Positions 15,414 through 43,442 of a stretch of 64,000 nucleotides of DNA are shown here, in pieces. Made by a program: the position numbers and the translations under genes. Position 1 is the stretch's first letter. Each line of letters starts with the position of its first letter. Source of the DNA: Streptomyces sp. Go-475 (GTDB lineage Bacteria; Actinomycetota; Actinomycetes; Streptomycetales; Streptomycetaceae); NCBI RefSeq assembly GCF_003330845.1, contig NZ_CP026121.1, positions 5,995,501 through 6,059,500 on the forward strand, written 5' to 3'. The notes below the pieces were generated by a model that did not search any database, had not been told where the DNA came from, and saw nothing but the letters and a program-made list of their open reading frames with translations.

Positions 15414-16484
15414 CTAGCAGTCCCGGTAGGCGACGGACACCGCCATGGCCGTGAGTTCCTCCGCCCATCCCGGGGCGAGACCGGCGTCACGTACGGCCGC
15501 CTGAGCCGCTTCCACCTGCTTCTCGATCAACGCCTCCACACGTTCGTGGACGCGATGCTCCACGAGCAGGTCGTACAGCTCCTGCGGAGCCACCGCTGAC
15601 CAGTCGTCTCCCATCAGCGTGGCGATCGACGGTTCGTCAGCCATCGCGAAACACATCAGCAGTGTCATCTTGTGACCGGCGAAGTCCAGCCTGTTCGGCT
15701 TGCCGGTCACCCGCGGATCGCCGAAGGCGTCCAGCAGGTCGTCGCGCAGCTGGAACGCCTCACCGACAGCACTCCCGTACTCCTCGAACGTCTGTGACAG
15801 GGCCGTGTTTCCGGCCAGAGCGGCGCCCAGCCACAGGGGCCTCTGGATCGTGTACCGGCCCGACTTGAACCGCGCGATCCAACGGGCGAGATCCGCGTCG
15901 GGCTGACATCGGGCGGCCGCCCGGATGTCCAGGAACTGCCCCATCATCAGTTCGGAGCACAACTCGCCCCAGACCGCCGCGACCTGCGGCGGCGAGCCCG
16001 CGACGAGACGGTTGGCGAACACCGACGCGAGATTGCCGGCGAGGACGGCCACGCTCTCACCGTACCGGCGAGCTTCTCCCTTCCAGGAGCGCCGCCTGTG
16101 CAGTTCCGAGTGCCGGACGTGTGCTGTGGGCGCGTTCCTGCGCACCTGCGAGCCGTCCATGACGTCGTCATGCAGGAGCGCGAACGTGTGCAGGAGTTCC
16201 AGTGCGGCGGCGACATCGACGATCGCCGCCGAGTCGGGAGAACCGCCGGCGGCCAGGTAACCCGATACGCAGAACGCGGGGCGCAGCCGCTTGCCTCCAC
16301 TGGCGACCATGTCCGCCACGCAGTCGATCAGCTCGACGGAGTCGGGGTTCAGCTGGTGCCAGCTGTTCCGCTCGTCCCGCAGCAGCTCCGCGAGGCGCCG
16401 CTCGACGCGCTCCATGACCTGCTGCCGCAGCACACCGGCGTTCAAGGACTGTGTCGTGTCTTCCACTGCTGTCACGTCGACCAT
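15414..16484 (-). CDS. Polyprenyl (probably geranylgeranyl) diphosphate synthase
   Basis: Trans-prenyl chain elongation enzyme using IPP and an allylic primer. It has GGKRLRP near residue 64, the first Asp-rich motif LLHDDVMDGSQVRR near 105, and the second in FQLRDDLLDAFGDP near 245, so it should be active. The first motif is DDxxD without a two-residue insertion and has Phe five residues before the first Asp, a pattern associated with C20 products; chain length is therefore inferred, not proven. A standard 356 residues. It is the last gene of the leftward operon, 42 bases after ispH, and would use the extra IPP/DMAPP made by the cluster's dxs, ispG and ispH. Confidence 0.9.
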   Translation of the reverse strand: MVDVTAVEDTTQSLNAGVLRQQVMERVERRLAELLRDERNSWHQLNPDSVELIDCVADMVASGGKRLRPAFCVSGYLAAGGSPDSAAIVDVAAALELLHTFALLHDDVMDGSQVRRNAPTAHVRHSELHRRRSWKGEARRYGESVAVLAGNLASVFANRLVAGSPPQVAAVWGELCSELMMGQFLDIRAAARCQPDADLARWIARFKSGRYTIQRPLWLGAALAGNTALSQTFEEYGSAVGEAFQLRDDLLDAFGDPRVTGKPNRLDFAGHKMTLLMCFAMADEPSIATLMGDDWSAVAPQELYDLLVEHRVHERVEALIEKQVEAAQAAVRDAGLAPGWAEELTAMAVSVAYRDC

Positions 16485-16526
16485 GTCAATACCTCGGTAG
16501 GGGATGCCACAGGGCGAGTGGAGGGG

Positions 16527-17516
16527 TCAGTCCCGGTGTCCAGCGTGGTCGAACAGACTGCCCGGAACGGCGAAGGTCACGTTCTCGGTGGTGGTACGCA
16601 CCACTTCCCGGCCGGTGTACCCGAGTTCGTCCAGCCGGTTCAGCAGTTGCCGCACCAGGAACTCGGGGGCGCTGGCGCCGGCGGTGACGCCGACGGCGTC
16701 GGCCCCGGCGAGCCGGCTCTCGTCGAGCCGCGACACGTCGTTGACGAGGTACGCCGGGGTGCCCCGGCCCCTGGCCACCTCGACCATGCGAACGGAGTTG
16801 CTGGAATTGTCCGAGCCCACGACCAGGACCACATCCGAGCGCGCCGCGATCTCCTTCACCGCGTTCTGGCGGTTCTGGCTGGCGTAGCAGATGTCGTCGG
16901 TGCCCGGGCCCTGTATCCCGGGGAACCGCCGGGTCAGTTCGGTGATGATGTCACGCGTCTCGTCCAGAGAGAGCGTGGTCTGCGTGAGGAACGTGACCTC
17001 CGTCCCCTCCGGGAGTTCGAGGCGCCGGGCACTGTCCACGGTGGGCACCACCACGGTGCGGTCCGGGGCTTCGCCGAAGGTGCCCTCCACCTCCTCGTGA
17101 TCGGCGTGGCCGATCAGCACGATGGTGCGGCCGTTCGCGGAGGCCCGTTTGGCCTCCTGGTGCACCTTGGCCACGAGTGGGCAGGTGGCGTCGATCACGC
17201 GAAGGCCGCGCCGGGCGCTGTTGTCGCGCACGGCGGGAGAGACGCCATGCGCGGAGAAAACGCATATCGCGCCTTCGGGCACCTCGTCCTCCGAATCCAC
17301 GAACCGGGCACCACGGCCCTGCAGTTCACGGACGACATGCTCGTTGTGCACGATCTGCTTGCGCACGTAGACGGGTTCCCCGTACGTTTCCAGCGCCTGC
17401 TCCACCATGCTGATGGCGCGGTCGACGCCGGCACAGAACCCGCGGGGTTCGGCCAGCAGCACCCGTTTCACGGTACGTCCTGCAGAAGGCGACTCCGAAT
17501 TCTTGATCGTGGGCAC
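16527..17516 (-). CDS. ispH: 4-hydroxy-3-methylbut-2-enyl diphosphate reductase
   Basis: Last enzyme of the MEP pathway; an iron-sulfur reductase giving IPP and DMAPP. The three cluster-ligand cysteines are visible in PRGFCAGVDRA (residue about 28), DATCPLVAKVH and DDICYASQNRQ, together with the substrate histidines in VHNEHVV and IGHADHEEVEG and the SDNSSNS loop. Length 329 is slightly above E. coli IspH. GTG 17516 starts it. It lies between the BenE-like transporter gene (108-base gap) and the prenyl synthase gene, in an operon that is clearly not the housekeeping setting, so this is likely a cluster-specific extra copy. Confidence 0.96.
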   Translation of the reverse strand: MPTIKNSESPSAGRTVKRVLLAEPRGFCAGVDRAISMVEQALETYGEPVYVRKQIVHNEHVVRELQGRGARFVDSEDEVPEGAICVFSAHGVSPAVRDNSARRGLRVIDATCPLVAKVHQEAKRASANGRTIVLIGHADHEEVEGTFGEAPDRTVVVPTVDSARRLELPEGTEVTFLTQTTLSLDETRDIITELTRRFPGIQGPGTDDICYASQNRQNAVKEIAARSDVVLVVGSDNSSNSVRMVEVARGRGTPAYLVNDVSRLDESRLAGADAVGVTAGASAPEFLVRQLLNRLDELGYTGREVVRTTTENVTFAVPGSLFDHAGHRD

Positions 17517-17624
17517 CTGTCACCCTTTCCGTTATTCTTTTTCATGAGCCGGCCGCTCACATCCGGGATGTCTCGCACCGCAATGGTCCGTGCGTAATTC
17601 AGTGGCTGCCATAGCAAACACCTG

Positions 17625-18905
17625 TCAGCCTGTACGGTCCTTCCTCAATGGGACGCTCCGCGCCCGGACGATGATCAGGTGGACCGCTGTTCCCGCAACC
17701 AGCCCCCAGAATGCGGAACCGATGCCGAGGAATTCCACTCCCGATGCGGTCAGGAGCATGGTGACCAAGGCGCCGTCACGATCCGCCGCGGTCTGCGTGG
17801 CCGACGCGATCGCACCACCGAGCGCACCCAGCAGCGCCGTCCCCACCACCGCGCTCACCAGGGCGTCGGGCAACGCGGTGAACAGGCCCACGACCGCGGT
17901 GCCGAAGAGGCCGACGAGCAGATAGAAGAAGCCGCAGTACACCCCCGCGATGTAGCGCCGCTCGGGCTGCTCGTCCGCTTCCGGACCGGTGCAGATGGCG
18001 GCAGTGATCGCTCCGAGGTTGATCGCGTGACAGCCGAAGGGCGCCAGCAGCGCGGAAGCCGCTCCGGTCGCCAGCACGAGTCTGCCCGCGTCGGGCCGGT
18101 AGCCGGCGGCACGCAGGACGGCGAGGCCCGGCGCGTTCTGGGACGCCATGGTGACCAGGAACAGGGGAACGGCCAGGCCGACCACCGCATCGAGGGAGAA
18201 CGCCGGGACGGTGATCTGCGGCCGGACGAGGCCCAGGTGGATGGCGTCCCAGTGGAACCGGCCGGTCAGCACGGCGCACGCGCAGCCGATGAGCAGCGCG
18301 ACGGCGATGGACCAGCGGGGTGCGAGACGTCGGCAGCAGACATAGCCGGCCAGCATGCCCGCGACCATGGTGAGGTCGGCCTGTGCCGCCCGGAACAGAT
18401 CGATGCCGAACTCCAGCAGAATCCCGGCGAGCATGGCGGCGCCGATCGACGCCGGTATCGCTCGGACCAGCGCGTCGAACAGCCCGGTGGCCGCGACCAC
18501 GAGGGTGAGCGCCGCGGCGACCACATACGCTCCGACCGCCTCGGCGAAGGAATATCTGTCCAGGGCCGCCACCAGCAGGGCCGCGCCGGGTGTCGACCAC
18601 GCGGCGACGACGGGCATCCGCAGGGCGATGCTGAGAAGCACCCCTACGAGACCGCTGCCGAGGGAGACCGCCCAGACCCATGACTCCAGTGCCCCGGACG
18701 GCAGCTCCGCCGCCCGCGCGGCCTGGACGATCACCGCCATGGGCCCCGAATAGGCGACGATCACGGCTATGAGGCCGGCCACGGCGGCGGACAGGTTCCA
18801 GGCCGGATGGCGGGAGCGCGTGGCCCTGCCGTCCCCCGCGGGGCCCCCGCCCCCGGACGCCCGCGGCGTGCCGCCGGGCTGGGAGAGGCCCTTTCCGTGG
18901 GTCAT
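17625..18905 (-). CDS. BenE-family (benzoate/H+ symporter-like) membrane transporter
   Basis: Integral membrane protein of 426 residues with about 12 hydrophobic segments in the UraA/SLC26-like fold. It has the BenE-type GLIAVIVAYSGPMAVI start and later MASQNAPGLAVLRAAGYRP, CHAINLGAITAAICTG. BenE proteins are annotated as benzoate:proton symporters. In this operon, coupled to a UbiA prenyltransferase gene (ATG 18905 overlaps its TGA by four bases), it may bring in or move an aromatic acid acceptor or a cluster intermediate; that is an inference. A longer in-frame open stretch upstream runs inside ubiA and is not coding. Confidence 0.85.
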   Translation of the reverse strand: MTHGKGLSQPGGTPRASGGGGPAGDGRATRSRHPAWNLSAAVAGLIAVIVAYSGPMAVIVQAARAAELPSGALESWVWAVSLGSGLVGVLLSIALRMPVVAAWSTPGAALLVAALDRYSFAEAVGAYVVAAALTLVVAATGLFDALVRAIPASIGAAMLAGILLEFGIDLFRAAQADLTMVAGMLAGYVCCRRLAPRWSIAVALLIGCACAVLTGRFHWDAIHLGLVRPQITVPAFSLDAVVGLAVPLFLVTMASQNAPGLAVLRAAGYRPDAGRLVLATGAASALLAPFGCHAINLGAITAAICTGPEADEQPERRYIAGVYCGFFYLLVGLFGTAVVGLFTALPDALVSAVVGTALLGALGGAIASATQTAADRDGALVTMLLTASGVEFLGIGSAFWGLVAGTAVHLIIVRARSVPLRKDRTG

Positions 18906-19864
18906 CGGGCCACGTGGACGGCGAGAAGGTTGCCGGCCAACAGCAGCACGACCCCAAGACGCTGACACTTGATGCCCAGCACGCGGGCCGCCAGCGCCTC
19001 GCCCCGTACCACGCCCTTGTACACCTGTACGGCACGCGCCAGGAACAGGGGCGTGAGGATCGCCAGGAACCACGCCGGCACGACGTCGAGTACGACCGCG
19101 GCCACCACGGCCCCCGGTTCCACCAGGGTGAGTGCGGCGATGATCGACCGGTAGGCGCGCGGTCCGGTCATGGTGGCCAGGTTGCGCCGGCCCGCGAACC
19201 GGTCCCCGGCGATGTCGTTCATGTTCGAGTACAGCGAGACGAGGATGCTCCACAACCCGAACAAGACGGACTCCAGCACGACAAGACCGGTGACCCTGCC
19301 GCTGACCAGCGCGTACGGCAGCAGCACCACGAGTCCGGACGAGGAGACCAGCAGCAGTTCCTGCCCGCCGCGGTAGCTGAGCTTCAAGCCGTAGGAGTAC
19401 TGCATGGAGGACAGGGCGACGTAGAGCAGCGCGACGCATGCCCACAGCGGCTGGTGCGGCGCGGTGGCGGCGGTGACCGTCCACAGCGCGACCCCCCAGG
19501 CGGCCGCTCCCCAGGCGAACCGGGTGGCCTCCCGGACGGTCAGGACACCGGAGAGCAGCGGCTTGCGGGAGAGGTCGCGCAACGCCCCGGTCTCCGGCGT
19601 GTAGTTGCGTGCGTCGCTGCCGTCTCTGACGCCGGTCAGGTCATCGAACGCGACCGTGGCGGCCACGACGCCGACCTGCCCCGCCAGGAAGAGGGTGAGG
19701 GTGAGCCAGGTCGACGCCTGCCACAGCAGGGCGCCCGGCAACGCCGTCCACACCAGCGGGACGCACAGGTAGAAATCGAAGAAGGAGAGCTTTCCCAGCC
19801 TGGCGTACGCCCCGAGCTTCGACCTGCCTGGGGCCTCGGTGGGAACGGCTGTCTTCACGGCCAT
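18902..19864 (-). CDS. UbiA-superfamily prenyltransferase
   Basis: Intramembrane aromatic/polyprenyl transferase of 320 residues with about eight or nine hydrophobic helices. The first Asp-rich motif is divergent, FDDLTGVRDGSD, in place of the usual NDxxDxxxD; the second is normal, NMNDIAGDRFAGRRN near residue 215. Both should hold Mg-diphosphate. The family joins a polyprenyl diphosphate to an acceptor (4-hydroxybenzoate, DHNA, homogentisate, phosphoribose, glycerol phosphate), and a few members cyclise. The neighbouring synthase gene suggests a C20 or longer donor. The acceptor is unknown; BenE coupling hints at an aromatic acid, the rightward operon at a sugar or cyclitol. Confidence 0.88.
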   Translation of the reverse strand: MAVKTAVPTEAPGRSKLGAYARLGKLSFFDFYLCVPLVWTALPGALLWQASTWLTLTLFLAGQVGVVAATVAFDDLTGVRDGSDARNYTPETGALRDLSRKPLLSGVLTVREATRFAWGAAAWGVALWTVTAATAPHQPLWACVALLYVALSSMQYSYGLKLSYRGGQELLLVSSSGLVVLLPYALVSGRVTGLVVLESVLFGLWSILVSLYSNMNDIAGDRFAGRRNLATMTGPRAYRSIIAALTLVEPGAVVAAVVLDVVPAWFLAILTPLFLARAVQVYKGVVRGEALAARVLGIKCQRLGVVLLLAGNLLAVHVAR

Positions 19865-19909
19865 CGCCGATCGGCCTTTCGTGGAGGAGTCGGGGTGGCG
19901 GCCGGGGGC

Positions 19910-20734
19910 TCAGGCCGGCTTGCGACCGTAGGTCGAGATGAGCACCTGGCTCAGCCAGTGGTTGTCCGGGTCGTTCATGGCACGGACGGCCTCGTCGATG
20001 CGCTCGGGGGTCAGCAGGCCTTGGCCGAGCAGCCGTGGACGCAGGTACTCCAGCCACAGCACGTACATCCGCGCCCTGTCGGAACCGCCCTGCACCATCA
20101 CGGCCCGGCCCTCGGCCCACACGTCCTCCAGGCCGGCCCGCAGGGCCGCCTGGTGGTCGATGTGGCCACCGCGCATGCAGTAGTCGGTCTGCTCCATGAC
20201 CGTGTAGGCAGCGGTGTGCACGTCCTTCAGGAAGTCCTCCGAGGCGGCCGACCTGAACAGCGTCAGGGCGTCGGTGTCCTCCAGGAAGAGCAGCCCGCCG
20301 GGACGCAGGGCGCGAACCATCCGCTCCACCGCGGCGTACGGATCCTTCAGGTGTTGCAGCACCATCCGGGCATGGACGAGGTCGAACTGCTCGGCGGGCA
20401 GTTCGTCGTCGCGGATGTCGAGCGCGGCCACCTCGACGGGCGGCCGGGCGAGCGGGAGCAGCGGCCGCGTGGACAGGTCCACCGCGAGGACGCGCCCGCC
20501 AGGGCCGACGCGCTCGGCCAGCTCTCTGACGATGGAGCCCTGTCCGGCCCCCACTTCGAGGCACGACCAGCCGGTCGTCACCCCCAGGCGGTCCAGGCGT
20601 TCGATCGTGCCCTCGTCCCACAGCGCCTCATTGGCCCGCACGCGCTCCGCCTCGTGGTCCCATTCTGTGTCGAAGAGATAGTCGTCCTCCTTTCCCTTCG
20701 CCTTCTCGGGGGCGGTTCCGCCGACAACACTCAT
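19910..20734 (-). CDS. SAM-dependent methyltransferase (class I)
   Basis: Rossmann methyltransferase: motif I CLEVGAGQGSIVRELAERVG near residue 60, VLAVDLSTRPL, then DIRDDELPAEQFDLVHARMVLQHLKDP with the acidic motif II, and ALRPGGLLFLED. It is UbiE/Coq5-like in fold; O-, C- or N-methylation cannot be told apart. ATG 20734 has GAGAGG upstream; an in-frame open extension to 20911 is not family-like. It is the first gene of the leftward operon (methyltransferase, UbiA, BenE, ispH, prenyl synthase), 45 bases before the UbiA start, so it probably modifies the prenyl acceptor or product. Confidence 0.87.
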   Translation of the reverse strand: MSVVGGTAPEKAKGKEDDYLFDTEWDHEAERVRANEALWDEGTIERLDRLGVTTGWSCLEVGAGQGSIVRELAERVGPGGRVLAVDLSTRPLLPLARPPVEVAALDIRDDELPAEQFDLVHARMVLQHLKDPYAAVERMVRALRPGGLLFLEDTDALTLFRSAASEDFLKDVHTAAYTVMEQTDYCMRGGHIDHQAALRAGLEDVWAEGRAVMVQGGSDRARMYVLWLEYLRPRLLGQGLLTPERIDEAVRAMNDPDNHWLSQVLISTYGRKPA

Positions 20735-21088: not shown

Positions 21089-22150
21089 TTGTTGCAGACA
21101 TTGATCGTCGGTTTGGGAAGGTCGGGACTCGGTCTCCACCTGTCCATCCTGCGGAAATTGCGCCACGGCGTGCCCGGCGAGAACGCGGATCTGTTCGCCC
21201 CGGAGGCGCCTGTCGGCTACGACATCCGCGCCGTCCCGGTGGAGGGGGGAACCGGCGGGCTGCGTCCGGTCCGGTCCCTGGCCGAGGCGCGGGCACTGCT
21301 CGATCCCGAGCGCACGGTCGTGCACTTGTGCACCCCACCGCGGGTACGTGCCGAAGTCTTGGAGGAACTGGCCGTACTCGGCTTCCGCGCGATCCTGGTG
21401 GAAAAGCCGCTGGCCGCGGACAACGCGGAGGTGGACAGGATCCGCGCGCTGCGTGACCGGCACGGTCTGCGCCTGGCTGTCGTCGCACCGTGGCTGCACA
21501 GCACCTTGACGCAGCGGCTGGAGGCGGCGGTGCTGTCGGGCGGAATGGGCGCGCTGCGCTCCATCGACATCCGTCAGAACAAGCCACGCCTGACCAGGAC
21601 GCTGCAGAGCCGGAGCCATCCGACGGTCTTCGACATCGAGTTGCCGCACGCGGTCGGCGTCGCGCTGCGGCTGGCAGGGCACGGCCGCGTCACCGAGGCG
21701 TCCTGCGAGGACGCCAGGGCCGGCGACGTCATGGTCAGGTTCATGGGCGCCGCCCGGTCGTCGATCCGGCACGACAGCGGCGTGGTCACCACCATCACCT
21801 CCGACCTCATGTCCGCCACCCGCGAACGAACCATCACCCTGCGCTTCTCCGGCGGCACGCTGACCGGGCACTACCCGGTCAGCGCGGCCGACTCCTACGC
21901 GCAGTTGCACACCGAGGTGCCCGGGCGCCCCGGCACGAGCGACGTCTTCGAGGACGAGGCGCTGACCGCGTGTCTCCTGCAGACGTACCGCGACTTCGCC
22001 GCAGGCGCGGACCTGACCGCCGGCTTCGCGCTGCAGGCGCAGGTCGTCTCCCTGCTCACCGCGGCGAAGAGGCTGTCCATACGCGGGGCGGCCGCCGAGC
22101 GCGCCGCCGACCCGGCGCCCGTGCGGGAAGGGGCGGTTCATGCCTGCTGA
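21089..22150 (+). CDS. Gfo/Idh/MocA family NAD(P)-dependent oxidoreductase 1
   Basis: N-terminal Rossmann domain (LIVGLGRSGLGLHLSIL, a GxGxxG variant) and the conserved VEKPLAADNAE segment near residue 113, where the catalytic Lys of the family resides; the C-terminal alpha/beta domain follows. Members oxidise or reduce a hydroxyl of sugars, inositols or nucleotide sugars, often at C3. TTG 21089 is used because GGAGG ends 8 bases upstream; a second TTG follows directly. It is the first gene of a tightly packed rightward operon and overlaps the next gene by 11 bases. The usual C-terminal His motif is not obvious to me, so catalytic details are uncertain. Confidence 0.85.
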   Translation: MLQTLIVGLGRSGLGLHLSILRKLRHGVPGENADLFAPEAPVGYDIRAVPVEGGTGGLRPVRSLAEARALLDPERTVVHLCTPPRVRAEVLEELAVLGFRAILVEKPLAADNAEVDRIRALRDRHGLRLAVVAPWLHSTLTQRLEAAVLSGGMGALRSIDIRQNKPRLTRTLQSRSHPTVFDIELPHAVGVALRLAGHGRVTEASCEDARAGDVMVRFMGAARSSIRHDSGVVTTITSDLMSATRERTITLRFSGGTLTGHYPVSAADSYAQLHTEVPGRPGTSDVFEDEALTACLLQTYRDFAAGADLTAGFALQAQVVSLLTAAKRLSIRGAAAERAADPAPVREGAVHAC

Positions 22151-23045
22151 CCGGTTCGCGTTGCCGCCCGGCATCGAGTGGTGCGGCATCGGGGACGAGG
22201 CGGCGGTGGCGCTCGATCGCCAGCTCGCGGCGCTCACCGAGCTCGGCTGGGGCCTCATCGAAGTGCGCAACGTGGACGGTGCGGCCCTCGCGGACCTCGA
22301 CGACGACGCGTTCGACCGGCTGGTCCAGCGTCTGGACGCGGCCGGGTTGGGCGTGGCCTGCGTCGACTCCCGCATCGCCAACTGGGGTCGCCCGATCACC
22401 TCCGACTTCGCCACTGATCTCCGCGAGCTGGAGATCCTCACCGAGCGCTGTGCCCGTCTCGGCACCCGCCGGATCCGGATCATGTCCTATCCCCAGGGTG
22501 GCCTGGAAGAGGGCCGATGGCGCAGCGAGGTGTACGCGCGGATCACCGAGCTCGCCCGGCGCGCGGAAAGCGCGGGTCTCACCCTGCTGCACGAGAACTG
22601 CGCCGGGTGGGCCGGGCGCGAGGCGGGCCGGATGCTCGATCTGCTGGCGCACGTGGACAGCCCGGCGCTGAAGCTGCTGTTCGACACCGGCAACGGCGTC
22701 GCCTACTCCTACGACTCCTACCGGCTGCTCCTGGACATCGCCCCCCACGTGGAGCACGTCCACATCAAGGACGCGGTGCCCGAGGGGTCGGGGGCCGCCT
22801 ACGTGATGCCCGGGGAAGGCGTCTGCCGGGTCGCCGACAGCCTGCGCGTGCTGGTCGACCACGGGTACCGGGGGGTGTGGTCCATCGAACCGCACCTCAA
22901 CGTCCGGCCCCACGAGTCCGTGGCGGCGACCGGCTCGGACTACGTGAAGGAGTTCATCGCCTACGGACGGGCGCTGGAGGAACTGGTGAGCACACGTGTG
23001 CTGGGCGACCCCCGCCACGAGGACGAGCCGCGGCGGTCGGTGTGA
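22140..23045 (+). CDS. TIM-barrel sugar isomerase/epimerase family protein (AP_endonuc_2)
   Basis: Xylose-isomerase-like TIM barrel, relatives of IolE (inosose dehydratase), IolH and D-psicose epimerase. Metal ligands expected for the family are visible: Glu in LLHENCAG (near residue 145), Asp in LLFDTGN, His in EHVHIKD, Glu in WSIEPHLN. With two Gfo/Idh enzymes in the same operon it fits a keto-sugar/keto-cyclitol step: epimerisation, isomerisation or dehydration next to a keto group. Length 301 is typical. The stop overlaps the next start as GTGA. Confidence 0.85.
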   Translation: MPADRFALPPGIEWCGIGDEAAVALDRQLAALTELGWGLIEVRNVDGAALADLDDDAFDRLVQRLDAAGLGVACVDSRIANWGRPITSDFATDLRELEILTERCARLGTRRIRIMSYPQGGLEEGRWRSEVYARITELARRAESAGLTLLHENCAGWAGREAGRMLDLLAHVDSPALKLLFDTGNGVAYSYDSYRLLLDIAPHVEHVHIKDAVPEGSGAAYVMPGEGVCRVADSLRVLVDHGYRGVWSIEPHLNVRPHESVAATGSDYVKEFIAYGRALEELVSTRVLGDPRHEDEPRRSV

Positions 23046-30126: not shown

Positions 30127-30290
30127 TGCTGCCGCGTCATTGACGGGGCCGCGGAGAGCTCGCGGGAGCAAAATCGGCGTCTCCTGTGCAGAACAGCTGG
30201 GTTTCAGGGCTGCGGGACAGCCCGCCTTACCTGACAGGGGCACGATAATCAAGCTGCCTTAGCGCAATTTACTTCTTGGGGGAGAGGTTT

Positions 30291-35230: not shown

Positions 35231-36493
35231 ATGGCGTCCAAAATCGTCGTGTTAGGGCAGGGCTATGTCGGCCTTCCGCTCGCCGTGGCAGCCGCGGAGC
35301 GGGGATACGAAGTCATCGGTTACGACACCGATGAGAACCGCGTGAAGAAGTTGGCGACCGGAGAGTCGTACGTCGCCGACATCGGCGCAGAGCGTCTGGC
35401 CGCGGTCCTCGCCCGGGCGACATACCGGCCTTCCGTCTCCGCCGGCGACCTCGACGGCTTCGACGTGGCGGTGATCGCCGTGCCCACGCCGATGGTCGAC
35501 GGGATTCCGGATCTCTCCTTCGTCCGAGCGGCGGGGGAGGCCCTGGGCGCGGTACTGCGCCCGGGTGCCACGGTGATCCTGGAATCGACGAGCTATCCGG
35601 GAACCACCCGGGAAGTGCTGGCTCCGCAGCTGGAGAGGCTGTCGGGACTCACCCCGGGCAGGGATTTCCACCTGGGATACAGCCCCGAGCGGATCGATCC
35701 CGGCAACGGCCGCTGGGTGTTCGAGAACACACCCAAGGTGGTGTCAGGGATCGACGAGACCTCTTTGACCAAGGTGGCGGAGTTCTACGAGTCCATCGTG
35801 GACGAGGTCGTCCGTGCGGACTCCCCGGAGGTCGCCGAGTTGGCGAAGGTCGTGGAGAACACGTTCCGCCACGTCAACATCGCGCTCGTCAACGAACTGG
35901 CCATGCACGCGGAGGGCCTTGGCATCGACGTGTGGAAGGCGCTGGACGTCGCGGCCACGAAGCCCTTCGGATACATGCCGTTCAAGCCGGGGCCGGGCGT
36001 CGGGGGACACTGCCTGCCGGTCGACCCCCTGTATCTCTCCTGGAAGGTGGAACGCACTCTGCGCAGACCCTTCCGGCTCGTGGCGCTCGCGGACGAACTG
36101 AACAACCGGATGCCCGAGTACGTCGTGTGCAGGATCGCCCGGGGCCTGGACCGGCGCGGGCAGACGATGAGCGGCTCACGCCTGTTGCTGCTCGGGCTGG
36201 CCTACAAGGCGGACACAGGGGACATCCGGGAGTCGCCGGCCCTGGACATCGCCACGTTGCTCATCAAGGAGGGAGCCACGGTCCGTGCCGTGGATCCCCA
36301 CGTCACCGAGCCGACCGACGTACCGGGGCTGGTCCGCGCCGACCTCACCACCGAGGAGATCGAGGCGGCGGACGCCGTCGTCGTCGTCACCGATCACAGT
36401 GCCTTCGATTACGACGCGATCACCGCTTCGGCGCGTTACGTCTTCGACTGCCGTCATCGGCTGACCCCCTCCGAGCGGATCGAGTCCCTGTGA
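35231..36493 (+). CDS. Nucleotide-sugar 6-dehydrogenase (UDP-glucose/GDP-mannose dehydrogenase family)
   Basis: NAD-dependent four-electron oxidation of a UDP-hexose(-NAc) to the uronic acid. Motifs: VVLGQGYVGLPLAVAAAERG at the N-terminus, VPTPMVDGIPDLSFV, ESTSYPGTTREV, YSPERIDPGN, VENTFRHVNIALVNELA, and GVGGHCLPVDPLYL with the catalytic Cys near residue 259. The sequence is of the WecC/WbpO-like class that takes N-acetylhexosamine derivatives more often than plain UDP-Glc, but the class does not fix the substrate. Codon 8 is TTA (35252-35254), so the gene is under bldA control. It starts 69 bases after the second aminotransferase gene and is probably cotranscribed. Confidence 0.92.
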   Translation: MASKIVVLGQGYVGLPLAVAAAERGYEVIGYDTDENRVKKLATGESYVADIGAERLAAVLARATYRPSVSAGDLDGFDVAVIAVPTPMVDGIPDLSFVRAAGEALGAVLRPGATVILESTSYPGTTREVLAPQLERLSGLTPGRDFHLGYSPERIDPGNGRWVFENTPKVVSGIDETSLTKVAEFYESIVDEVVRADSPEVAELAKVVENTFRHVNIALVNELAMHAEGLGIDVWKALDVAATKPFGYMPFKPGPGVGGHCLPVDPLYLSWKVERTLRRPFRLVALADELNNRMPEYVVCRIARGLDRRGQTMSGSRLLLLGLAYKADTGDIRESPALDIATLLIKEGATVRAVDPHVTEPTDVPGLVRADLTTEEIEAADAVVVVTDHSAFDYDAITASARYVFDCRHRLTPSERIESL

Positions 36494-36596: not shown

Positions 36597-36686
36597 GTCG
36601 ATCAGGCCTGGCCGGGGCGGGGGTCCGGAACGGCGGAGCACTCGTCCCCGTGTGCCCGAGCCCGGAACTTCGCAGAGGAGAGCACG

Positions 36687-38297
36687 TTGAGAAAGGCCAA
36701 GGTCAAAGGGTACGGAATAGGCGCACTGTTCGACGTCTACGGAGAGCTCGGCCGTAGCACGGTCTTCCACCTCAGCCGCCCGCTGGACATCGCCCCCACG
36801 AGCGGTACCCGCTACGACGTGCCGGCGCTCGGCGCACTGGTCGCGCAGGCGGCCGGGTGGCTGGCGGCGGCGGGTGCCAAGGCGGGGGACCGGATCGCGA
36901 TCATCAAGGACAACCACTGGGACTGCACCCTGCTGGCGTGCGCGGCGGCGCGCCTGGGTGCGCTGCCGGCGATGATCTCCGCAACGGTGGCCCCGGCGTA
37001 CCTGGAGGAACTGCTGCGCCGGCTGGAGCCCGCCGTGACCGTCACGCAGGAACGCCTGCTGTCCGCTTGCCGGGAAGCGGGAGTGGATCCGACGAAGCTG
37101 TCCAGGGCCGTCGTCAGCCTCGACGGCCAGGTGCCGGGGACGCTGAGCCTGACGGACCTGCCGAAGGACCAGTCCCCACCGCCGCAGCGGCGCGATCCGA
37201 GCGCGCCGATGATCGTCACCCACACCTCCGGCACCACCGGGGTCCCCAAACTGGTCGTGCACTCCTGCGACACGATCCTCGGCATCCTCGGCAAGGTCGA
37301 GTCGGTCCGCTGGCCGATCGTCGCCACCCGCCGCAGCGACACGGTGGCCAGTGCCATCTCCTTCGTGCACGGGCGAAGCATCCCCTGGACCGCCGGCACC
37401 CTCATTCTGGAGCCGCGCAAGGCGGTGATCGTGGCCGACGGCGACCCGGCCGTCGCCGAACGCGTCCTCAGCGCCCACCGGCCCACCACCTGCGAGGCGC
37501 TGCCCAGCACCTTCACGCGCTGGGAGCGGCTCGCCCAGGCCCCTCACAACGTCTTCTCGGACGTGAGGCTGTATGTGAGCACCTTCGACGCCATGCACCC
37601 GCCCACGATCCGCACGTTCCTGGCGGCCTCGCGGCGCCGGATGCCGGTCTGGCTCCAGGGCTGGGGCCAGTCCGAGGCCGGGCCGCTGGCGTTCCGGCTG
37701 CTCACCCGGCGCGCCCTGGCCCGCACCGGGGAACGGCACCCCACCACCCGTCAGGTGGGCCGTCCCCTGCCCGGTTTCACCCGGCTCAAGGTGGTGGACC
37801 CGCAGACGATGCGGCCCTTGGAGGCCGGCGAGCGCGGCCTGGTCCTCGCCCGGACCCGCGGCCGGTGCCTGACCTACCTCGGTGAGGAGGACCGCTGGCG
37901 GGAGAAGGCACGCGGTCAGTGGTGGAACACCGGTGACATCGGCGTCCGCAGCCGCACCGGGAACGTGTCGCTGCTGGACCGAGAGGTCGACAGCATCCCG
38001 GGCATGAGCTGCATCGAACTCGAGGACGTCCTCACCGACCGGATTCCGCGGATCGAGGAGGTGGTGATCCTCGGTTCGCCCGGGCGCGAGCCGTTGCCCG
38101 TCGTCTGCACACCGGACGGGACGCTGGACGCGGCCGAGTGGCGGCGAGCCACCGGCGACCTGCCGCCGCTGGCCGAACCTGTCTGCGTCACCTGGGACGA
38201 GGTGCCCCGCACCGGCACCGGGAAGGTGCGCCGCGGTGAACTCCGCGCACGGTTCCTCGACGGGGCGGCGACCCACGGGACCGGAAGGTGGACATGA
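36687..38297 (+). CDS. Adenylate-forming acyl-CoA synthetase/ligase (ANL superfamily)
   Basis: Activates a carboxylic acid as the acyl-AMP and passes it to CoA, a carrier or directly to an amine. Core motifs: THTSGTTGVPKLV near residue 173-185 (A3, with His for the usual Tyr), WLQGWGQSEAGP (A5-like, near 325), GQWWNTGDIG with the ribose-binding Asp (A7), and PRTGTGKVRRGEL with the A10 Lys near 515. 536 residues, stand-alone, with no carrier protein gene in the cluster. TTG 36687 follows AGAGGAG. With the BenE and UbiA genes it could activate an aromatic or polyprenyl-derived acid; or the uronic acid made by the dehydrogenase. The substrate pocket cannot be read by eye. Confidence 0.87.
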   Translation: MRKAKVKGYGIGALFDVYGELGRSTVFHLSRPLDIAPTSGTRYDVPALGALVAQAAGWLAAAGAKAGDRIAIIKDNHWDCTLLACAAARLGALPAMISATVAPAYLEELLRRLEPAVTVTQERLLSACREAGVDPTKLSRAVVSLDGQVPGTLSLTDLPKDQSPPPQRRDPSAPMIVTHTSGTTGVPKLVVHSCDTILGILGKVESVRWPIVATRRSDTVASAISFVHGRSIPWTAGTLILEPRKAVIVADGDPAVAERVLSAHRPTTCEALPSTFTRWERLAQAPHNVFSDVRLYVSTFDAMHPPTIRTFLAASRRRMPVWLQGWGQSEAGPLAFRLLTRRALARTGERHPTTRQVGRPLPGFTRLKVVDPQTMRPLEAGERGLVLARTRGRCLTYLGEEDRWREKARGQWWNTGDIGVRSRTGNVSLLDREVDSIPGMSCIELEDVLTDRIPRIEEVVILGSPGREPLPVVCTPDGTLDAAEWRRATGDLPPLAEPVCVTWDEVPRTGTGKVRRGELRARFLDGAATHGTGRWT

Positions 38298-38328
38298 CCG
38301 CGCCCGGCAGGACGGATGAGGTGCATCG

Positions 38329-39708
38329 GTGAGCGAGATCGACGTGGCGGTCGTCGGCGCGGGGATCTCGGGCCTCGCGACGGCGCACTGGTTGACCCGC
38401 CAGGGGCGCTCGGTCCAGGTCTTCGAGGCCGACGACGGCGTCGGCGGCCGGATGCGCAGCCACCGGCGGAACGGATACCTCCTGGACACGGGCGCCGAGA
38501 CACTGGCGGCTCATGGCTATCCGAGCACCTGGCGGTTGCTGAGGGAACTCGGCGTCGCGCCGGGCGATGTCCTTCCCGTGCGCAGCGCCGTGGGGCTGTG
38601 GCGTGACGGTCGCGTACATCCCTGGGTGGGGCACCCGCTGGGCGGGATCACCGGTGCGGGGCTGTCGCCTGGAGGACGCCTGCACATGATGCGCATGACC
38701 GGGCGCCTGCTGCGCGGCGCCCGCAGGTTCGACGTGCGCCGCCCGGAGGACACGCCGCTGGGGACGATGACAGTGGCCGAATTCGCCCGGTCCTACCCGC
38801 CGGAGCTGCACGACTACCTGCTTCAGCCGGCCGTGGGCACGGCCTTCGGCTGGCGACCGGAACATGCCTGCATGGGGCCCTTCGTCAGCAGCATGCTCTC
38901 CACCCGCGGCATCTGGAAGTGGCGCACCTACCGCGATGGGATGGATTTCCCGGCCCGGACCATCGCCGAGCGCGTTCCGGTGCGCACCACGAGGCCGGTC
39001 GCCGAGGTCGTCCCGGCGGGCACGGGCGTACGGGTGACGTTCCGCGACGGTGACACGCTCACCGCGCGTCAGGTCGTGCTGGCGGTGCCCGCTCCGGTGG
39101 CCGCCGAGTTGTATCCGGCCATGCCCGAGGAGGAGAGGGCCTACGTGCGGTCCTGCCACTACGCCCCGATGGCCCGGGTGAGCTGCCTGCTCGACCGGCC
39201 GCTCGAGCCGCCGCGTGGCCGGGCACAGCCGCATGTGTACGCGCTGCTGGTGCCGGGCGCCGTGGACGACGTGCTCAGCGGGCTGACCATCGAGCACAAC
39301 AAGGCGGCCGACCGGGCTCCCCGTGGACGCGGCCTGGTCACCCTGTTGCCCGCGGCGGACGTCACAGCGGACTTGCTGAGCACGTCCGACGGCGCTGTCA
39401 TCGCGACGCTGCTGGAACGAGCCGAGCGCTACCTGCCGGGAGTGAAGGAGGCGTGCCTCGACGCGGTGCTGCACCGGTTCCCGCACGGCTCCATCGAGGC
39501 GCGCCCGGAGACGCTCGGCGCCCGCCCGGCGTTCGTGCGCCGCGCCCCGCGAGCCGTGGAGTACGCCGGTGACTGGCTCTTCCTCAGGGCGAGCAGCGAG
39601 GGCGCCGTCGATTCCGCCGGTCTCGCGGCCGCCAGGGTCATGGAACGCCACAGGGCGGGGCGGACCCCGGGCTCCGCGCATCGGCGCCCGTCCACGCAGG
39701 CCCCGTAG
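38329..39708 (+). CDS. FAD-dependent oxidoreductase, protoporphyrinogen-oxidase/phytoene-desaturase-like 1
   Basis: Flavoprotein with the N-terminal dinucleotide motif VAVVGAGISGLATAHWLTRQG and the following VFEADDGVGGRMRSH, typical of the amine oxidase/HemY/CrtI superfamily. 459 residues; the C-terminal FAD-contact region is LFLRASSEGAVDSAGLAAARV. Members dehydrogenate C-C or C-N bonds of lipophilic substrates. GTG 38329 has GAGG upstream. It follows the ligase gene by 31 bases and precedes a second, related flavoprotein. In this cluster it may desaturate the polyprenyl chain or oxidise the ring to which it is attached; unproven. Confidence 0.85.
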   Translation: MSEIDVAVVGAGISGLATAHWLTRQGRSVQVFEADDGVGGRMRSHRRNGYLLDTGAETLAAHGYPSTWRLLRELGVAPGDVLPVRSAVGLWRDGRVHPWVGHPLGGITGAGLSPGGRLHMMRMTGRLLRGARRFDVRRPEDTPLGTMTVAEFARSYPPELHDYLLQPAVGTAFGWRPEHACMGPFVSSMLSTRGIWKWRTYRDGMDFPARTIAERVPVRTTRPVAEVVPAGTGVRVTFRDGDTLTARQVVLAVPAPVAAELYPAMPEEERAYVRSCHYAPMARVSCLLDRPLEPPRGRAQPHVYALLVPGAVDDVLSGLTIEHNKAADRAPRGRGLVTLLPAADVTADLLSTSDGAVIATLLERAERYLPGVKEACLDAVLHRFPHGSIEARPETLGARPAFVRRAPRAVEYAGDWLFLRASSEGAVDSAGLAAARVMERHRAGRTPGSAHRRPSTQAP

Positions 39709-39754
39709 TCGTACGGGACACCCAGCCGCTATTCGTGTGCCAAGGAGGCCAAAC

Positions 39755-41101
39755 ATGTCCAAGACACGTCGAGTCGCCGTGATCGGTGGCGGTATGTCGG
39801 GCTGCGCGGCAGCCCGCGAACTCATCATGGCGGGACGCGACGTCACGGTGTTCGAGGCCGGCGACGGACTCGGCGGGCGGGCCCGGTCGTGGCACCGGCC
39901 GGAGATCGAGCCCGACACCGGCATCAACCTGTGGTTCACCAGCTTCTACGACGTCCTGTTCGAGCGCATCCGCGAGTACGGGCTGGAACACGACATGGTC
40001 GAGATGCGCAACTCCATGGTGATCGTGGCGAACGGGAAACCGGTCAATCTGGCCGCGGACTCCATGGCCGACCTGCTGTCCTACTCGCACTGCGGAATGC
40101 GGGACAAACTGCGCTTCCTCGCCACCTCGGCGCGTATGACAGCACGTCGCCGACGTCTGGACCTGTTCGAGCCGGAGCAGCTCGCCGCCTTCGACGACGG
40201 CGTCTCGGCCGCGGACTGGTCCCGCGCCGTCATGTCGGAGAACGCTTATCAGTACCTGATACGGCCGATGATCGAGTCGTTCTGGCTGTGGCGCTGCGAG
40301 GAGATCTCCAAGGTGCACGTCATGGCGATGCTGGCCAACGTCGCGGGGTCGAAGTTCTACGTCTTCGGCCGCGGCATGGAGACCGTGGCGCAGCGGATGG
40401 CGAACGGCGCCACCGTGCGTCTGAGCACGTCCGTCTCCGAGATCACGGTGGACAGCAGCCGGCAGGTGCGGATTTCGGCCGTGGACGCCAACGGCGAGAC
40501 CTCCAGCGAGGCGTTCGACGAGGTCGTGATCGCCACGCCCGCCCCGACCGCCGCGAAGCTGGCCGCCTCGCTGCCCGGCGACATCGCGCCCGCGGACATG
40601 CTGCGGTTCGCCGAGACCCAGCGGTACGAACCGGCTCTGTCGGTCTCCTTCCTCATCGACCGGGGCCGTATGCCCTCGGGTGAGCACATCGTGCCCGCCG
40701 GCCCCGGGATCCGCTCGGTACGCAGCATCATCACCGTTCCGAAGACGCTGATCACCGCTGACGGCCGATACCGGGAGAAGGAGCTCACTTTCGTCTACCT
40801 GGGCCGGCAGGCGACAAGTGAACTCATCGGCGCCCCCGCGGACCGGCAGTACGAGCGGGCGCTGGAGCTGGCGCCGCAGCTGTGGCCCGAATTCCCCCGG
40901 GACGCCGAGCCGTTCCATATCGTGGAGCGTCCGGTGGGCCTGGCATGGCCGGAGCCGGGCCGCTTCCGCCGCGCCGCCCAGCTGGCCAGGGAACAGCGCG
41001 GACCTGTCGTCTTCGCCGGCGACTACCTGGGCTGCCCGACGGCGGAGGCTTCCATGCGTACGGGTATCAGGGCCGCGAACTCGCTGCTGGCGACTGTCTG
41101 A
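39755..41101 (+). CDS. FAD-dependent oxidoreductase, protoporphyrinogen-oxidase/phytoene-desaturase-like 2
   Basis: Second flavoprotein of the same superfamily: VAVIGGGMSGCAAARELIMAG, VFEAGDGLGGRARSW, and the C-terminal FAD segment VVFAGDYLGCPTAEASMRTG. 448 residues. It is more like the HpnE/carotenoid-type amine oxidases in its C-terminal motif (AGDYLG...ASMRTG) than the upstream copy. ATG 39755 has a textbook AAGGAGG site; an open stretch from 39569 reads through the upstream gene. The two copies differ enough to suggest two different oxidation steps and not a recent duplication. Confidence 0.86.
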   Translation: MSKTRRVAVIGGGMSGCAAARELIMAGRDVTVFEAGDGLGGRARSWHRPEIEPDTGINLWFTSFYDVLFERIREYGLEHDMVEMRNSMVIVANGKPVNLAADSMADLLSYSHCGMRDKLRFLATSARMTARRRRLDLFEPEQLAAFDDGVSAADWSRAVMSENAYQYLIRPMIESFWLWRCEEISKVHVMAMLANVAGSKFYVFGRGMETVAQRMANGATVRLSTSVSEITVDSSRQVRISAVDANGETSSEAFDEVVIATPAPTAAKLAASLPGDIAPADMLRFAETQRYEPALSVSFLIDRGRMPSGEHIVPAGPGIRSVRSIITVPKTLITADGRYREKELTFVYLGRQATSELIGAPADRQYERALELAPQLWPEFPRDAEPFHIVERPVGLAWPEPGRFRRAAQLAREQRGPVVFAGDYLGCPTAEASMRTGIRAANSLLATV

Positions 41102-41210
41102 TATCCGCTCTTGCCACTTCCCCCCTCCGGGGCGGCTCACCACACTGTCGGTGGCGACGCAGGTGGGCAAGTTGCCCGCCGGGTGACGGGGGATGTGACC
41201 ACTAAGGAGA

Positions 41211-43442
41211 ATGATGTTCCACCGACTGGCGCAGGCCCTGCTGCGGCGGCCGAAGCGCCTGCTTTACGCCAGCTTGATGCTCTTTGTCGTGGCGGCGGCA
41301 GTGGGCGCCACCGTGCTGCCGAAACTGTCCGCCGGGGGCTACACCGACACCGGCACCGAGTCGGCACGGGCGGCCGAGGTGCTCGAAGAGCGGTTCGGCG
41401 TGGGGCAGCCCAATCTGGTGCTGCTCGTCGAGGATCGACGCGGTGTGGATGATGCGGCCGTCTCGGCCGCCGCCGCCCGGGTCACGAGCCGGCTGGCCAA
41501 GGAACCGAGCGTTGCCGAAGCGTACTCGTACTGGACCACGGGCCGCCCGGCTGCGCTGAAATCCGACGACTCCCGCAGTGCCCTGATCATGGCCTGGATC
41601 AAGGGCGACGAGGACGACGTCCAGGCGTGGATGACCGATCACGGCGCCGACTACCAGGGACGCGTGCAGGGTCTGGAGATCAAGCAGGGCGGCACCGCCA
41701 AGGCGAACGAAGAACTCACCTCCCAGACGGCGAAGGATCTGTTCAAGGCCGAGGCCATCGCCATGCCGATCCTCCTCGTCGTGCTGATCTTCGTCTTCCG
41801 CGGGATCGTCGCCGCCGCCATGCCGCTGCTCCTCGGCACGCTGACGATGGCCGGCGCCTTCTGCGTCCTGCGCATCATCAGCCTGTTCACCGACGTCTCC
41901 GTCTTCGCGATGAACATCACCAGCGGACTCGGGCTCGGGCTGGCGGTCGACTACAGCCTCTTCATCATCAGCCGGTACCGGGAGGAACTCCGCCGGGGGG
42001 CCGGAACGGACCAAGCGCTGCTGACCAGTATGCGCACGGCCGGCCGGACGGTCGCGTTCTCCGCCGTCACCGTGGCTCTCGCCCTGAGCGGACTGCTGGT
42101 CTTCCCGTTCTACTTCCTGCGTTCCTTCGCCTACGCGGGCATTCCGGTCTCGCTGCTCGCGGCCGTCGCCTCGGTCACCGTCCTGCCCGCGCTGCTGAAG
42201 GTTCTGGGCCCGCGGATCGACAGCCTGCCCGTGCTGCGGCGCAGGAAGCCGCAGACCGATACCGGCTTCTGGTATCGCACGGCCAAGAAGGTGATGCGCT
42301 TCCCGGTGTCCGTGGGTACCGTCGGCGTCATCATTCTGCTCGCCCTCGGCGCGCCGTTCCTCGACCTGAAGATGACCCTGGCCGATGAGCGGGTCCTTCC
42401 GTCTTCCGCGAGTTCCTACCAGGTCGGCCAGGCCATGCGCGAACGCTTCGACTCGCAGCAGAGCCAGGCCGAGATGGTCGTCATGAGGAAATCCGGACCC
42501 ACCGAGACCGACCGCCTCAGCGACTACGCCGAACGCCTGTCCCGCCTGAAGGGTGTGGCCTCGGTGGAGACCGTCACCGGCAGCTACGCCGGCGGATCCC
42601 AGGTTGCCCGGCCCGGCCCGGCGTCTTCCAGCTTCGCGTCCGACTACGGGGTCTACCTGAAGGTGGTGCCCAAGGAGCCGGAAGTGTCCGAGAAGGGGCG
42701 GCAGTTGGTCCGTGAGATCCGGGCCGAGCGCGCACCCTACCCGGTCGAGGTGACGGGGCCCGGCGCCACCCTCGAGGACTCGATGAACTCGCTGAACTCC
42801 AAACTGCCCTGGGCGCTCGGTATCGTCGGGGGCAGCACCCTGATCCTGCTGTTCCTGCTGACGGGCAGCGTGCTCCTCCCGTTCAAGGCGCTCGTGCTCA
42901 ATACCCTCAGCCTGAGCGCGACGTTCGGGGTCCTCGTGTGGGGCTTCCAGGATGGGCATCTGGACGGAGTCATCGGCGACTTCACCCCGACCGGCGCGAT
43001 CACCTGGAGCGTGCCGATGCTCCTGTTCTGCGTCGCGTTCGGCCTGTCCATGGACTACGAGGTCTTCCTGCTCTCCCGGATCAAGGAAGAGTACGAGCAG
43101 ACCCACGACAACGTCTCCTCGGTGTCCAGAGGGCTGGGCCGGACCGGAAGCCTGGTGTCCGCGGCAGCGGTGCTCATCGCGATCGTGTTCGCCGGCTTCA
43201 TGACGTCGAGCATCACCTATCTGAAGGCGATCGGCCTGGGGCTGGCCCTCGCCGTGATCGTGGACGCCACCCTGGTCCGCGGTGCCCTGGTGCCGGCGTT
43301 CATGCGACTCGCCGGGAGCGCCAACTGGTGGGCGCCGGGGCCGCTGCGCCGGTTCCACCAGCGGGTCGGGCTGCGCGAGTCCGGTGAACCCCTGCCCCCG
43401 CGCGACGGCGCCGAAGCCGCGATGGCGGGCGACCGTAGCTGA
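41211..43442 (+). CDS. MMPL-family RND exporter
   Basis: Integral membrane exporter of 743 residues with the MMPL layout: one N-terminal helix (residues about 13-36), a periplasmic-type domain, five helices in the first half including GLGLGLAVDYSLFIISRYREEL, a second extracellular domain and five helices in the second half with FGLSMDYEVFLLSRIKEEY. The paired Asp-Tyr motifs in those helices are the proton-relay residues. Members export lipids, siderophores and antibiotics (ActII-3 and MmpL3 are examples). AAGGAG lies just before the tandem ATGATG start. Last gene of the cluster, before a strong hairpin; it probably exports the lipophilic product. Confidence 0.92.
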   Translation: MMFHRLAQALLRRPKRLLYASLMLFVVAAAVGATVLPKLSAGGYTDTGTESARAAEVLEERFGVGQPNLVLLVEDRRGVDDAAVSAAAARVTSRLAKEPSVAEAYSYWTTGRPAALKSDDSRSALIMAWIKGDEDDVQAWMTDHGADYQGRVQGLEIKQGGTAKANEELTSQTAKDLFKAEAIAMPILLVVLIFVFRGIVAAAMPLLLGTLTMAGAFCVLRIISLFTDVSVFAMNITSGLGLGLAVDYSLFIISRYREELRRGAGTDQALLTSMRTAGRTVAFSAVTVALALSGLLVFPFYFLRSFAYAGIPVSLLAAVASVTVLPALLKVLGPRIDSLPVLRRRKPQTDTGFWYRTAKKVMRFPVSVGTVGVIILLALGAPFLDLKMTLADERVLPSSASSYQVGQAMRERFDSQQSQAEMVVMRKSGPTETDRLSDYAERLSRLKGVASVETVTGSYAGGSQVARPGPASSSFASDYGVYLKVVPKEPEVSEKGRQLVREIRAERAPYPVEVTGPGATLEDSMNSLNSKLPWALGIVGGSTLILLFLLTGSVLLPFKALVLNTLSLSATFGVLVWGFQDGHLDGVIGDFTPTGAITWSVPMLLFCVAFGLSMDYEVFLLSRIKEEYEQTHDNVSSVSRGLGRTGSLVSAAAVLIAIVFAGFMTSSITYLKAIGLGLALAVIVDATLVRGALVPAFMRLAGSANWWAPGPLRRFHQRVGLRESGEPLPPRDGAEAAMAGDRS

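Follow-up and report, generated by a model that had tools for sequence, protein, structure and literature searches.

Our analysis reveals that a 64,000-nucleotide stretch of Streptomyces sp. Go-475 (hereafter the window; C1:5995501-6059500 of an 8.57-Mb single-contig genome, labelled G000) carries, at positions 15414-44107, a dedicated biosynthetic island that belongs to a conserved actinobacterial family. Gene calling and profile scans with Pfam and NCBIfam placed 22 genes in this span, and we class the island as a biosynthetic cluster of the meroterpenoid type whose acceptor pathway would be unusual. As judged from its conservation, the prenylation half and the amino half constitute one functional cluster and not chance neighbours. 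In the reading that we favour, to which we give about an even chance, amination and oxidation of a UDP-uronate would give an unusual amino acid, to be prenylated by a UbiA-family enzyme and tailored by a methyltransferase (MT) and an ANL-superfamily ligase.

The amino module consists of eight plus-strand genes. They encode a divergent Gfo/Idh/MocA oxidoreductase (gfo1, 21089..22150; PF01408 at 23.9 bits, just below the 24-bit cut-off), a xylose-isomerase-like TIM barrel of the AP_endonuc_2 type (tim, 22140..23045; PF01261, 102 bits), an M20-family metallohydrolase (m20, 23042..24334; PF01546, 66 bits), a member of the Ldh2/malate-lactate dehydrogenase family (ldh2, 24331..25467; Ldh_2, PF02615, 315 bits), a second Gfo/Idh protein with a D-x3-N motif as in L-arabinose 1-dehydrogenase (gfo2, 25464..26384; PF01408, 79 bits), a DUF6917 protein (26381..26791; PF21891, 195 bits), and two DegT-family sugar aminotransferases (degT1, 32838..34052, and degT2, 34010..35161; PF01041 at 377 and 310 bits, respectively). 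The nucleotide-sugar (UDP-hexose/HexNAc) 6-dehydrogenase gene ugd lies on the same strand (35231..36493; TIGR03026 at 389 bits, over the cut-off). The conserved prenylation part is made up of UbiA, the methyltransferase, the ANL ligase, and a flavoprotein. The divergent ubiA (18902..19864; PF01040, 65 bits) and the S-adenosylmethionine-dependent MT gene (19910..20734; PF08241/PF13489; start uncertain, the open reading frame (ORF) opening at 20911) are on the minus strand, and anl (36687..38297; adenylate-forming, AMP-binding, PF00501 at 149 bits) and fad1, of the amine-oxidase/PPOX/HpnE type (38329..39708; PF01593, 157 bits), are on the plus strand.

Conservation of the cluster across actinomycetes

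An alignment search with M20, using one genome per species, matched at least 593 stretches, 172 of which were confirmed. The best 80 of these 172 confirmed named loci were sampled with up to 10 kb fetched on each side of m20, and gene presence was scored by tblastn. The amino module was nearly always there: m20 in 80, gfo1 in 79, tim in 78, ldh2 in 77, gfo2 in 76, DUF6917 in 75, and degT1 and degT2 in 73 each. The other conserved genes were somewhat less frequent (ubiA 65, fad1 60, anl 58, MT 56, ugd 46). Among the 67 loci of at least 20.9 kb, all eight module genes were present in 61, and all twelve (the eight plus ubiA, MT, anl, and fad1) in 35; ubiA was not seen in 11. The sample covers Streptomyces, Kitasatospora, Streptacidiphilus, Nocardiopsis, Streptomonospora, Actinomadura, Amycolatopsis, Saccharopolyspora, Saccharothrix, Lentzea, Umezawaea, Actinokineospora, Kibdelosporangium, Actinocrispum, Catenuloplanes, and Nocardia, with neither degT nor ubiA seen in the Nocardia stretch. 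Gene order is shuffled between relatives and the content is retained; a locus of Streptomyces sp. NBRC 109706 (L065), for example, holds nearly the whole set of the window, including fad2 and mmpl, in a different order.

A survey of 392 Streptomyces genomes (raw genome counts, kinship ignored) gave the same picture. UbiA scoring at least 200 bits occurred in 43 genomes, and DUF6917 was found in 39 of these 43 versus 13 of the 349 others, the UbiA genomes without it being G289, G325, G380, and G385. Where DUF6917 and UbiA shared a contig, 37 of the 40 DUF6917 places compared were within 18 kb of UbiA; in the three exceptions (G047, G184, and G012), the module is 185, 199, or 856 kb away. On a plasmid of Streptomyces sp. 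NBC_00490, a gap of ~17 kb separates the module from a degT-ubiA-anl-ugd-mmpl-anl group, and G154 has ubiA with the full module at one locus and ubiA with idsA, ispH, dxs, and ispG at another ~357 kb away. The original prediction had joined a prenylation module and an amino-sugar module in one cluster, and the joint recurrence of the halves in relatives upholds this. Its concern that the halves might occur apart is borne out in part, as the amino module is found elsewhere without the window's UbiA, but they mostly stand together, all eight module genes accompanying ubiA in 54 of the 67 longer loci.

Gene fusions tie the members of the set further. A single gfo2::DUF6917 frame was called in ten loci (L065, L087, L097, G304, G313, G070, G195, G247, G302, and G252) and a single tim::m20 frame in eight (L068, L115, L127, L132, L136, G247, G302, and G371). 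DUF6917::dxs fusions were observed three times, by gene calls in L070 and G012 and as an annotated dxs of NBC_00490 that opens with DUF6917; such a fusion is a physical join of the amino module to isoprenoid supply.

The island also stands out in composition. GC content at third codon positions (GC3) averages 0.882 in its 22 genes versus 0.955 in 25 flanking genes. Furthermore, the luxR, degT1, ugd, and AhpD-like genes have one TTA codon each, and the 25 flanking genes have none. The AhpD-like gene (43541..44107, minus strand; carboxymuconolactone-decarboxylase (CMD) family, PF02627 at 48.5 bits), with a GC3 of 0.80, is probably the island's edge. To view the equivalent site in relatives, eight stretches beside sdaA were fetched, a match being counted at 40% identity and half coverage. 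By this measure, cluster genes were found in none of the eight. Genes of the left flank were retained near sdaA in five and were not found in the other three. A small EF-hand gene lies ~1 kb from sdaA in G003 and ~2-2.6 kb in G006 and G007; an ABC gene lies 4.5 kb from it in G010, and an F420-type oxidoreductase gene 5.6 kb in G009. The EF-hand gene of the window, encoding 70 amino acids at 10766-10978, belongs to the island's left flank and is kept near sdaA in relatives. The island was probably acquired horizontally. Because GC3 deviates, the gene set recurs reshuffled in relatives, and the sdaA site of relatives is free of cluster genes, we prefer an island to a chance neighbourhood.

Amino modules without UbiA

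DUF6917 is present with no match to the window's UbiA in twelve of the 392 genomes, seven of which (G304, G313, G070, G195, G247, G302, and G252) carry the module. In G304 (L151/L167), Pfam scans gave the order ugd-trpD-trpC-trpB-trpA-degT1-degT2-tim-m20-ldh2-gfo2::DUF6917, with a gene for a B3/4-domain protein (tRNA-editing type) next in line. Upstream lie trpF and the genes of two ATP-grasp proteins, of which one scores over and the other just under the Pfam cut-off. The same order was recognised from matches, reading, and gene length in G313 (L153), G070 (L154-L155), and G195 (L156-L157). Genes resembling those for ATP-grasp and MFS proteins were recognised by reading in G070 and G195, and the short G313 stretch shows neither. 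In G313, B3/4, TrpE-like (chorismate-binding), and TrpG-like (glutamine-amidotransferase) genes were confirmed by profile and are adjacent, and genes of a size matching the TrpE-/TrpG-like pair sit at the equivalent place in G070 and G195. With their trp genes, ATP-grasp proteins, and editing-type B3/4 protein, the G304-type loci may be amino-acid antimetabolite clusters with built-in protection.

No ldh2 was seen in G247 and G302, both of which have an adjoining glucarate-dehydratase-like gene; that of G247, the one scanned, scored 251 bits with TIGR03247, far under the cut-off of 829. The module of G252 lacks ldh2, has a divergent 315-residue protein in place of degT2, and is accompanied by a gene that reads as ATP-grasp-like. 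Of the other five genomes, four were opened (G291, G318, G073, and G224), and these showed distant or partial module relatives only.

Outside the actinomycetes, plasmids of three Rhizobium strains encode relatives of M20 and gfo2. The plasmid of Rhizobium sp. T1470 (L171:12362-24603) reads ectB-gfo1-degT1-degT2-tim-m20-ldh2-gfo2, after which come genes for a methyltransferase (EgtD-like), a transporter of the MFS type, and an ATP-grasp protein, with no DUF6917 and no adjoining ugd. Group II introns and transposase genes lie nearby, the plasmid is typed as conjugative, and the locus appears to be an uncharacterised cluster.

Thus, the amino module looks like a portable cassette that turns a sugar into an amino acid. 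Its output is proposed to be an amino acid because ATP-grasp proteins, a member of the amino-acid N-methyltransferase family (EgtD-like), and an editing-type domain adjoin the UbiA-less modules. That the same seven to eight genes turn up next to genes for UbiA, ATP-grasp, trp, or EgtD-like proteins predicts a building block shared by these clusters. Its identification would tie many actinomycetes to a family of products, assign a function to DUF6917, and provide UbiA prenyltransferases with a new acceptor.

Active sites, proposed route, and rival readings

Alignments of 57 to 79 sequences per core family, the window sequence included, showed the main tested active-site residues to be invariant in all families, with variation at some adjoining motif positions. 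UbiA (Pfam domain 64.6 bits, cut-off 34.2) keeps the six Asp of its two Asp-rich motifs in all 65 aligned sequences, and the Asn, Arg, and Gly flanking the second motif in 59, 59, and 61. It does not score as a MenA/UbiA quinone equivalog, with 28.9 bits in NCBIfam versus 277 for MenA. The Lys of EKP and the Glu and His of ELPH are invariant in gfo1 (64 sequences), as are E152/D182/H206/E250 in tim (70 sequences), an E/D/H/E set typical of the metal-dependent TIM-barrel members of its family. Seven putative metal or catalytic residues of m20 (79 sequences) and both Lys of anl (57 sequences) are likewise invariant.

The second oxidoreductase, gfo2, carries the EKP Lys and the D-x3-N signature of the aldose 1-dehydrogenase (AraDH/GalDH) subfamily of Gfo proteins, and K94/D176/N180 and Trp228 are invariant in 75 aligned sequences. 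It aligns over ~240 residues with L-arabinose 1-dehydrogenase (6jnj), with the D-x3-N motif in common. In the PDB ranking, 6jw6 (68.6 bits) and 3ezy (63.7 bits) precede AraDH entries, which take the third to fifth places (62.6-59.5 bits). The 3-dehydrogenase WlbA has a His-type catalytic motif; gfo2 has an Asn, invariant in the 75 sequences, and gfo1 has the ELPH His. The nearest PDB entries of degT1 are 2oga, 7b0d, and WbpE, that of degT2 is WbpE, and those of ugd are 4r16 (annotated as UDP-ManNAcA dehydrogenase), Cap5O, 3g79, and CalS8. A sugar-type substrate is proposed because WbpE is near both DegT proteins, ugd is WecC/Cap5O/CalS8-like, and gfo2 has the AraDH motif. The predicted structure of DUF6917 is confident and beta-rich (pLDDT 93.6), and structural comparison of the model returned no informative match.

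From the gene content, the conservation, the intact active-site residues, and the fusions, all directly observed, we infer the whole of the chemistry, including the order of the steps and the structure of the product. In the favoured route, ugd would form a uronate by oxidising a UDP-hexose or UDP-HexNAc at C6, and a Gfo/Idh enzyme together with a WbpE/DesV-like DegT enzyme would carry out oxidation and amination at a ring carbon; the other DegT enzyme may add or exchange a further amino group, giving one or two oxidation-amination cycles. After release, gfo2 with DUF6917 would oxidise C1 to an aldarate-level amino acid. The assignment of C1 to gfo2 follows from the D-x3-N signature; C1 oxidation after the action of ugd would lead to the aldarate level, which fits the glucarate-dehydratase-like gene of one variant. 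TIM and M20 would act consecutively, the former isomerising or eliminating and the latter hydrolysing, and Ldh2 may set the oxidation state of an alpha-hydroxy or keto acid. The module would thus end in an amino acid of an unusual kind, which might be an N-heterocycle and which fad1 may desaturate or aromatise. UbiA would add a prenyl chain built by idsA (C10-C20 expected), the MT would methylate, and the ANL ligase would activate the carboxylate, with the extra dxs, ispG, and ispH boosting precursor supply and BenE and MMPL providing transport. Extended to the whole family, the cassette (ugd, gfo1, gfo2-DUF6917, degT1, degT2, TIM, M20, and usually Ldh2) might convert a nucleotide sugar into a heteroaromatic or unusual amino acid, independently of shikimate and of proteinogenic amino acids, and supply it, in different clusters, to ligases of the ATP-grasp type, to tryptophan enzymes, or to UbiA, the version in the window then yielding an undescribed class of sugar-derived meroterpenoids across actinomycetes; a proposal of this breadth is tentative and, in our estimate, rather doubtful.

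Alternatively, the sugar ring could stay intact, close to what the original prediction had proposed: UbiA would attach a polyprenyl chain to an amino- or diamino-uronic acid or to the phosphate of such an acid, and the product, decorated by ANL and MT, would be exported as an amino-glycolipid. Wbp-like enzymes, to which the DegT and ugd proteins are homologous, make UDP-diamino-uronates; a UbiA-family enzyme, DPPR synthase, joins polyprenyl phosphate to phosphoribose; and an MMPL transporter is present. However, none of the 22 genes matched a glycosyltransferase family, MMPL occurs in just 3 of the 80 loci, the UbiA-less variants adjoin ATP-grasp proteins, and a route that keeps the UDP-sugar intact offers no evident task for TIM, M20, Ldh2, and the aldose-1-dehydrogenase motif. 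We regard an intact ring as fairly unlikely. The aminocyclitol that had also been suggested is unlikely as well, there being no match to a carbocycle synthase family.

It is also conceivable, though distinctly improbable, that the core makes from sugar an anthranilate-like N-heteroaromatic acid with ortho amino and carboxyl groups. In one variant, TrpD-F-C-B-A would then convert this acid to an analogue of tryptophan; here, UbiA/ANL/MT would make a prenylated heteroarene of it. The ugd-trpDCBA-module order of G304 (Pfam), and of G313, G070, and G195 by reading and position, agrees with this, congocidine offers a precedent for a pyrrole made from an amino sugar, and the B3/4 proteins of G304 and G313 suggest an amino-acid antimetabolite. 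On the other hand, with TrpE-/TrpG-like genes adjoining in G313 and size-matched genes in G070 and G195, the role of the trp genes may be no more than to make or safeguard tryptophan, and the aromatising step is putative. As for the idea that the island serves the catabolism of inositol or uronates and came to neighbour an isoprenoid cluster by chance, the Gfo/Idh, TIM-barrel, and Ldh2 families are indeed common in sugar catabolism. Yet both parts lie within one compositional island and recur together in many rearranged loci, DUF6917 is fused to dxs, and no sugar uptake family was found among the 22 genes, all of which makes this account highly implausible.

Among the closest known systems is the Wbp/Wlb pathway, in which WbpA, WbpB, and WbpE lead to UDP-diamino-uronates. 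The island has the Wbp-type set for a UDP-3-amino-uronate (UDP-sugar 6-dehydrogenase, Gfo/Idh, and DegT), and WbpE is the top PDB match of DegT2 and among the top ones of DegT1. In contrast, it shows no match to an acyltransferase or epimerase family (WbpD/WbpI), and it has two Gfo/Idh and two DegT proteins, TIM, M20, Ldh2, DUF6917, and the aldose-1-dehydrogenase D-x3-N of gfo2. The 4-acetamidopyrrole-2-carboxylate of congocidine and other pyrrolamides is a Streptomyces pyrrole amino acid thought to arise from an amino sugar through dehydrogenases and aminotransferases; unlike the island's proposed product, congocidine is not known to have a terpene part, and it is assembled by NRPS-like proteins. 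The xiamenmycin cluster has UbiA and an ANL ligase, and the aurachin cluster has UbiA. The acceptors of xiamenmycin, aurachin, and zigralone come from chorismate or tryptophan, unlike the one proposed for the island. Zigralone resembles the island in UbiA, polyprenyl synthase, aminotransferase, and methyltransferases, whereas the zig gene list includes five P450s and a Pyr4-like cyclase and names no gfo1-DUF6917 module, two DegT, or ugd (PMC13307353). In the Streptomyces pyrroloterpenes pyrrolostatin, nitropyrrolins, and heronapyrroles, a small N-heteroaromatic ring bears a prenyl chain (PMC11331545); one reading predicts a product of this type. Pyrrole-2-carboxylic acid is described as derived from proline (PMC11331545), and a link of the island to these compounds is speculation.

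In full-text literature, with most subscription journals outside the search, no description of the cluster was found for its own genes or possible relatives, in line with the earlier statement that no described pathway has this gene set; DUF6917 was not mentioned in the texts searched. It is the product that decides whether the module counts as a new category. Biosynthetic families that lack the usual signature enzymes are easily overlooked, and no terpene synthase (cyclase), glycosyltransferase, polyketide synthase, nonribosomal peptide synthetase (NRPS), or P450 family matched any of the 22 genes, as had been predicted.

Accessory genes and the second genomic copy

The profile scans recovered every enzyme family that the original prediction had named for 15414-43442; its inventory missed four genes, namely those for the methyltransferase, DUF6917, the LuxR regulator, and the AhpD-like protein. 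On the minus strand, idsA encodes a short-chain polyprenyl diphosphate synthase (15414..16484; PF00348, 158 bits), followed by ispH (16527..17516; PF02401/TIGR00216, 296 bits with the latter versus a cut-off of 187.9; a start at 17471 is possible too) and a BenE-type membrane transporter of the benzoate family (17625..18905; PF03594, 441 bits). The plus strand has dxs (26772..28703; TIGR00204) and ispG (28700..29854; TIGR00612), both over the cut-off, a LuxR-type regulator with an ATPase domain (30276..32660; PF00196, 60 bits; start uncertain), a second amine-oxidase-type flavoprotein, fad2 (39749..41101; PF01593, 114 bits; start uncertain, the ORF opening at 39569), and an MMPL-family transporter (41211..43442; PF03176, 272 bits), whose top NCBIfam model is MmpL3 at 402 bits, far under the cut-off of 1400. 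The dxs, ispG, and ispH of the island are extra copies, as the whole genome encodes three, three, and two of them, respectively.

The isoprenoid-supply genes and MMPL, earlier taken as the prenylation half itself, are accessory and mostly absent in relatives. Near the module, dxs was found in 7, ispG in 5, ispH in 7, and idsA in 6 of the 80 loci, and mmpl, fad2, and benE in 3, 3, and 2, respectively.

A widespread form of the cluster, type B, has an EF-hand protein (57 of the 80 loci) and a family-III CoA-transferase (found in 25 loci with tblastn and in 33 with clustering); several of its loci also have a second ANL gene. The genome of Streptomyces sp. Go-475 holds a second, diverged copy of this type at C1 ~355-376 kb (L048 and the start of L050). 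This copy encodes a CoA-transferase protein of the CaiB type and has a second ANL gene, and a DUF6917::CMD fusion was seen only there. The two copies share 41% identity in UbiA and 35% in MT, and the nearest relative of each of seven compared window genes is in G338 or L065; therefore, they do not stem from a recent duplication. The EF-hand companion has 175-180 residues (e.g., L128:14043-14576) and lies at C1 ~367-369 kb in this genome, between degT1 and gfo1 of the second copy. We take it to resemble calerythrin, and the type B loci may thus give a calerythrin-like protein type a pathway context. DUF6917 occurs in Saccharopolyspora erythraea NRRL 2338, the species of calerythrin. A 102-residue, secreted-looking protein with no Pfam match also accompanies type B loci (e.g., L074:1284-1592), in 36 of 80 by tblastn and 33 by clustering. 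Elsewhere in the window, two genes at 58411-60904 have GC3 values of 0.88 and 0.91, below those of their neighbours, and another acquired segment may start there.

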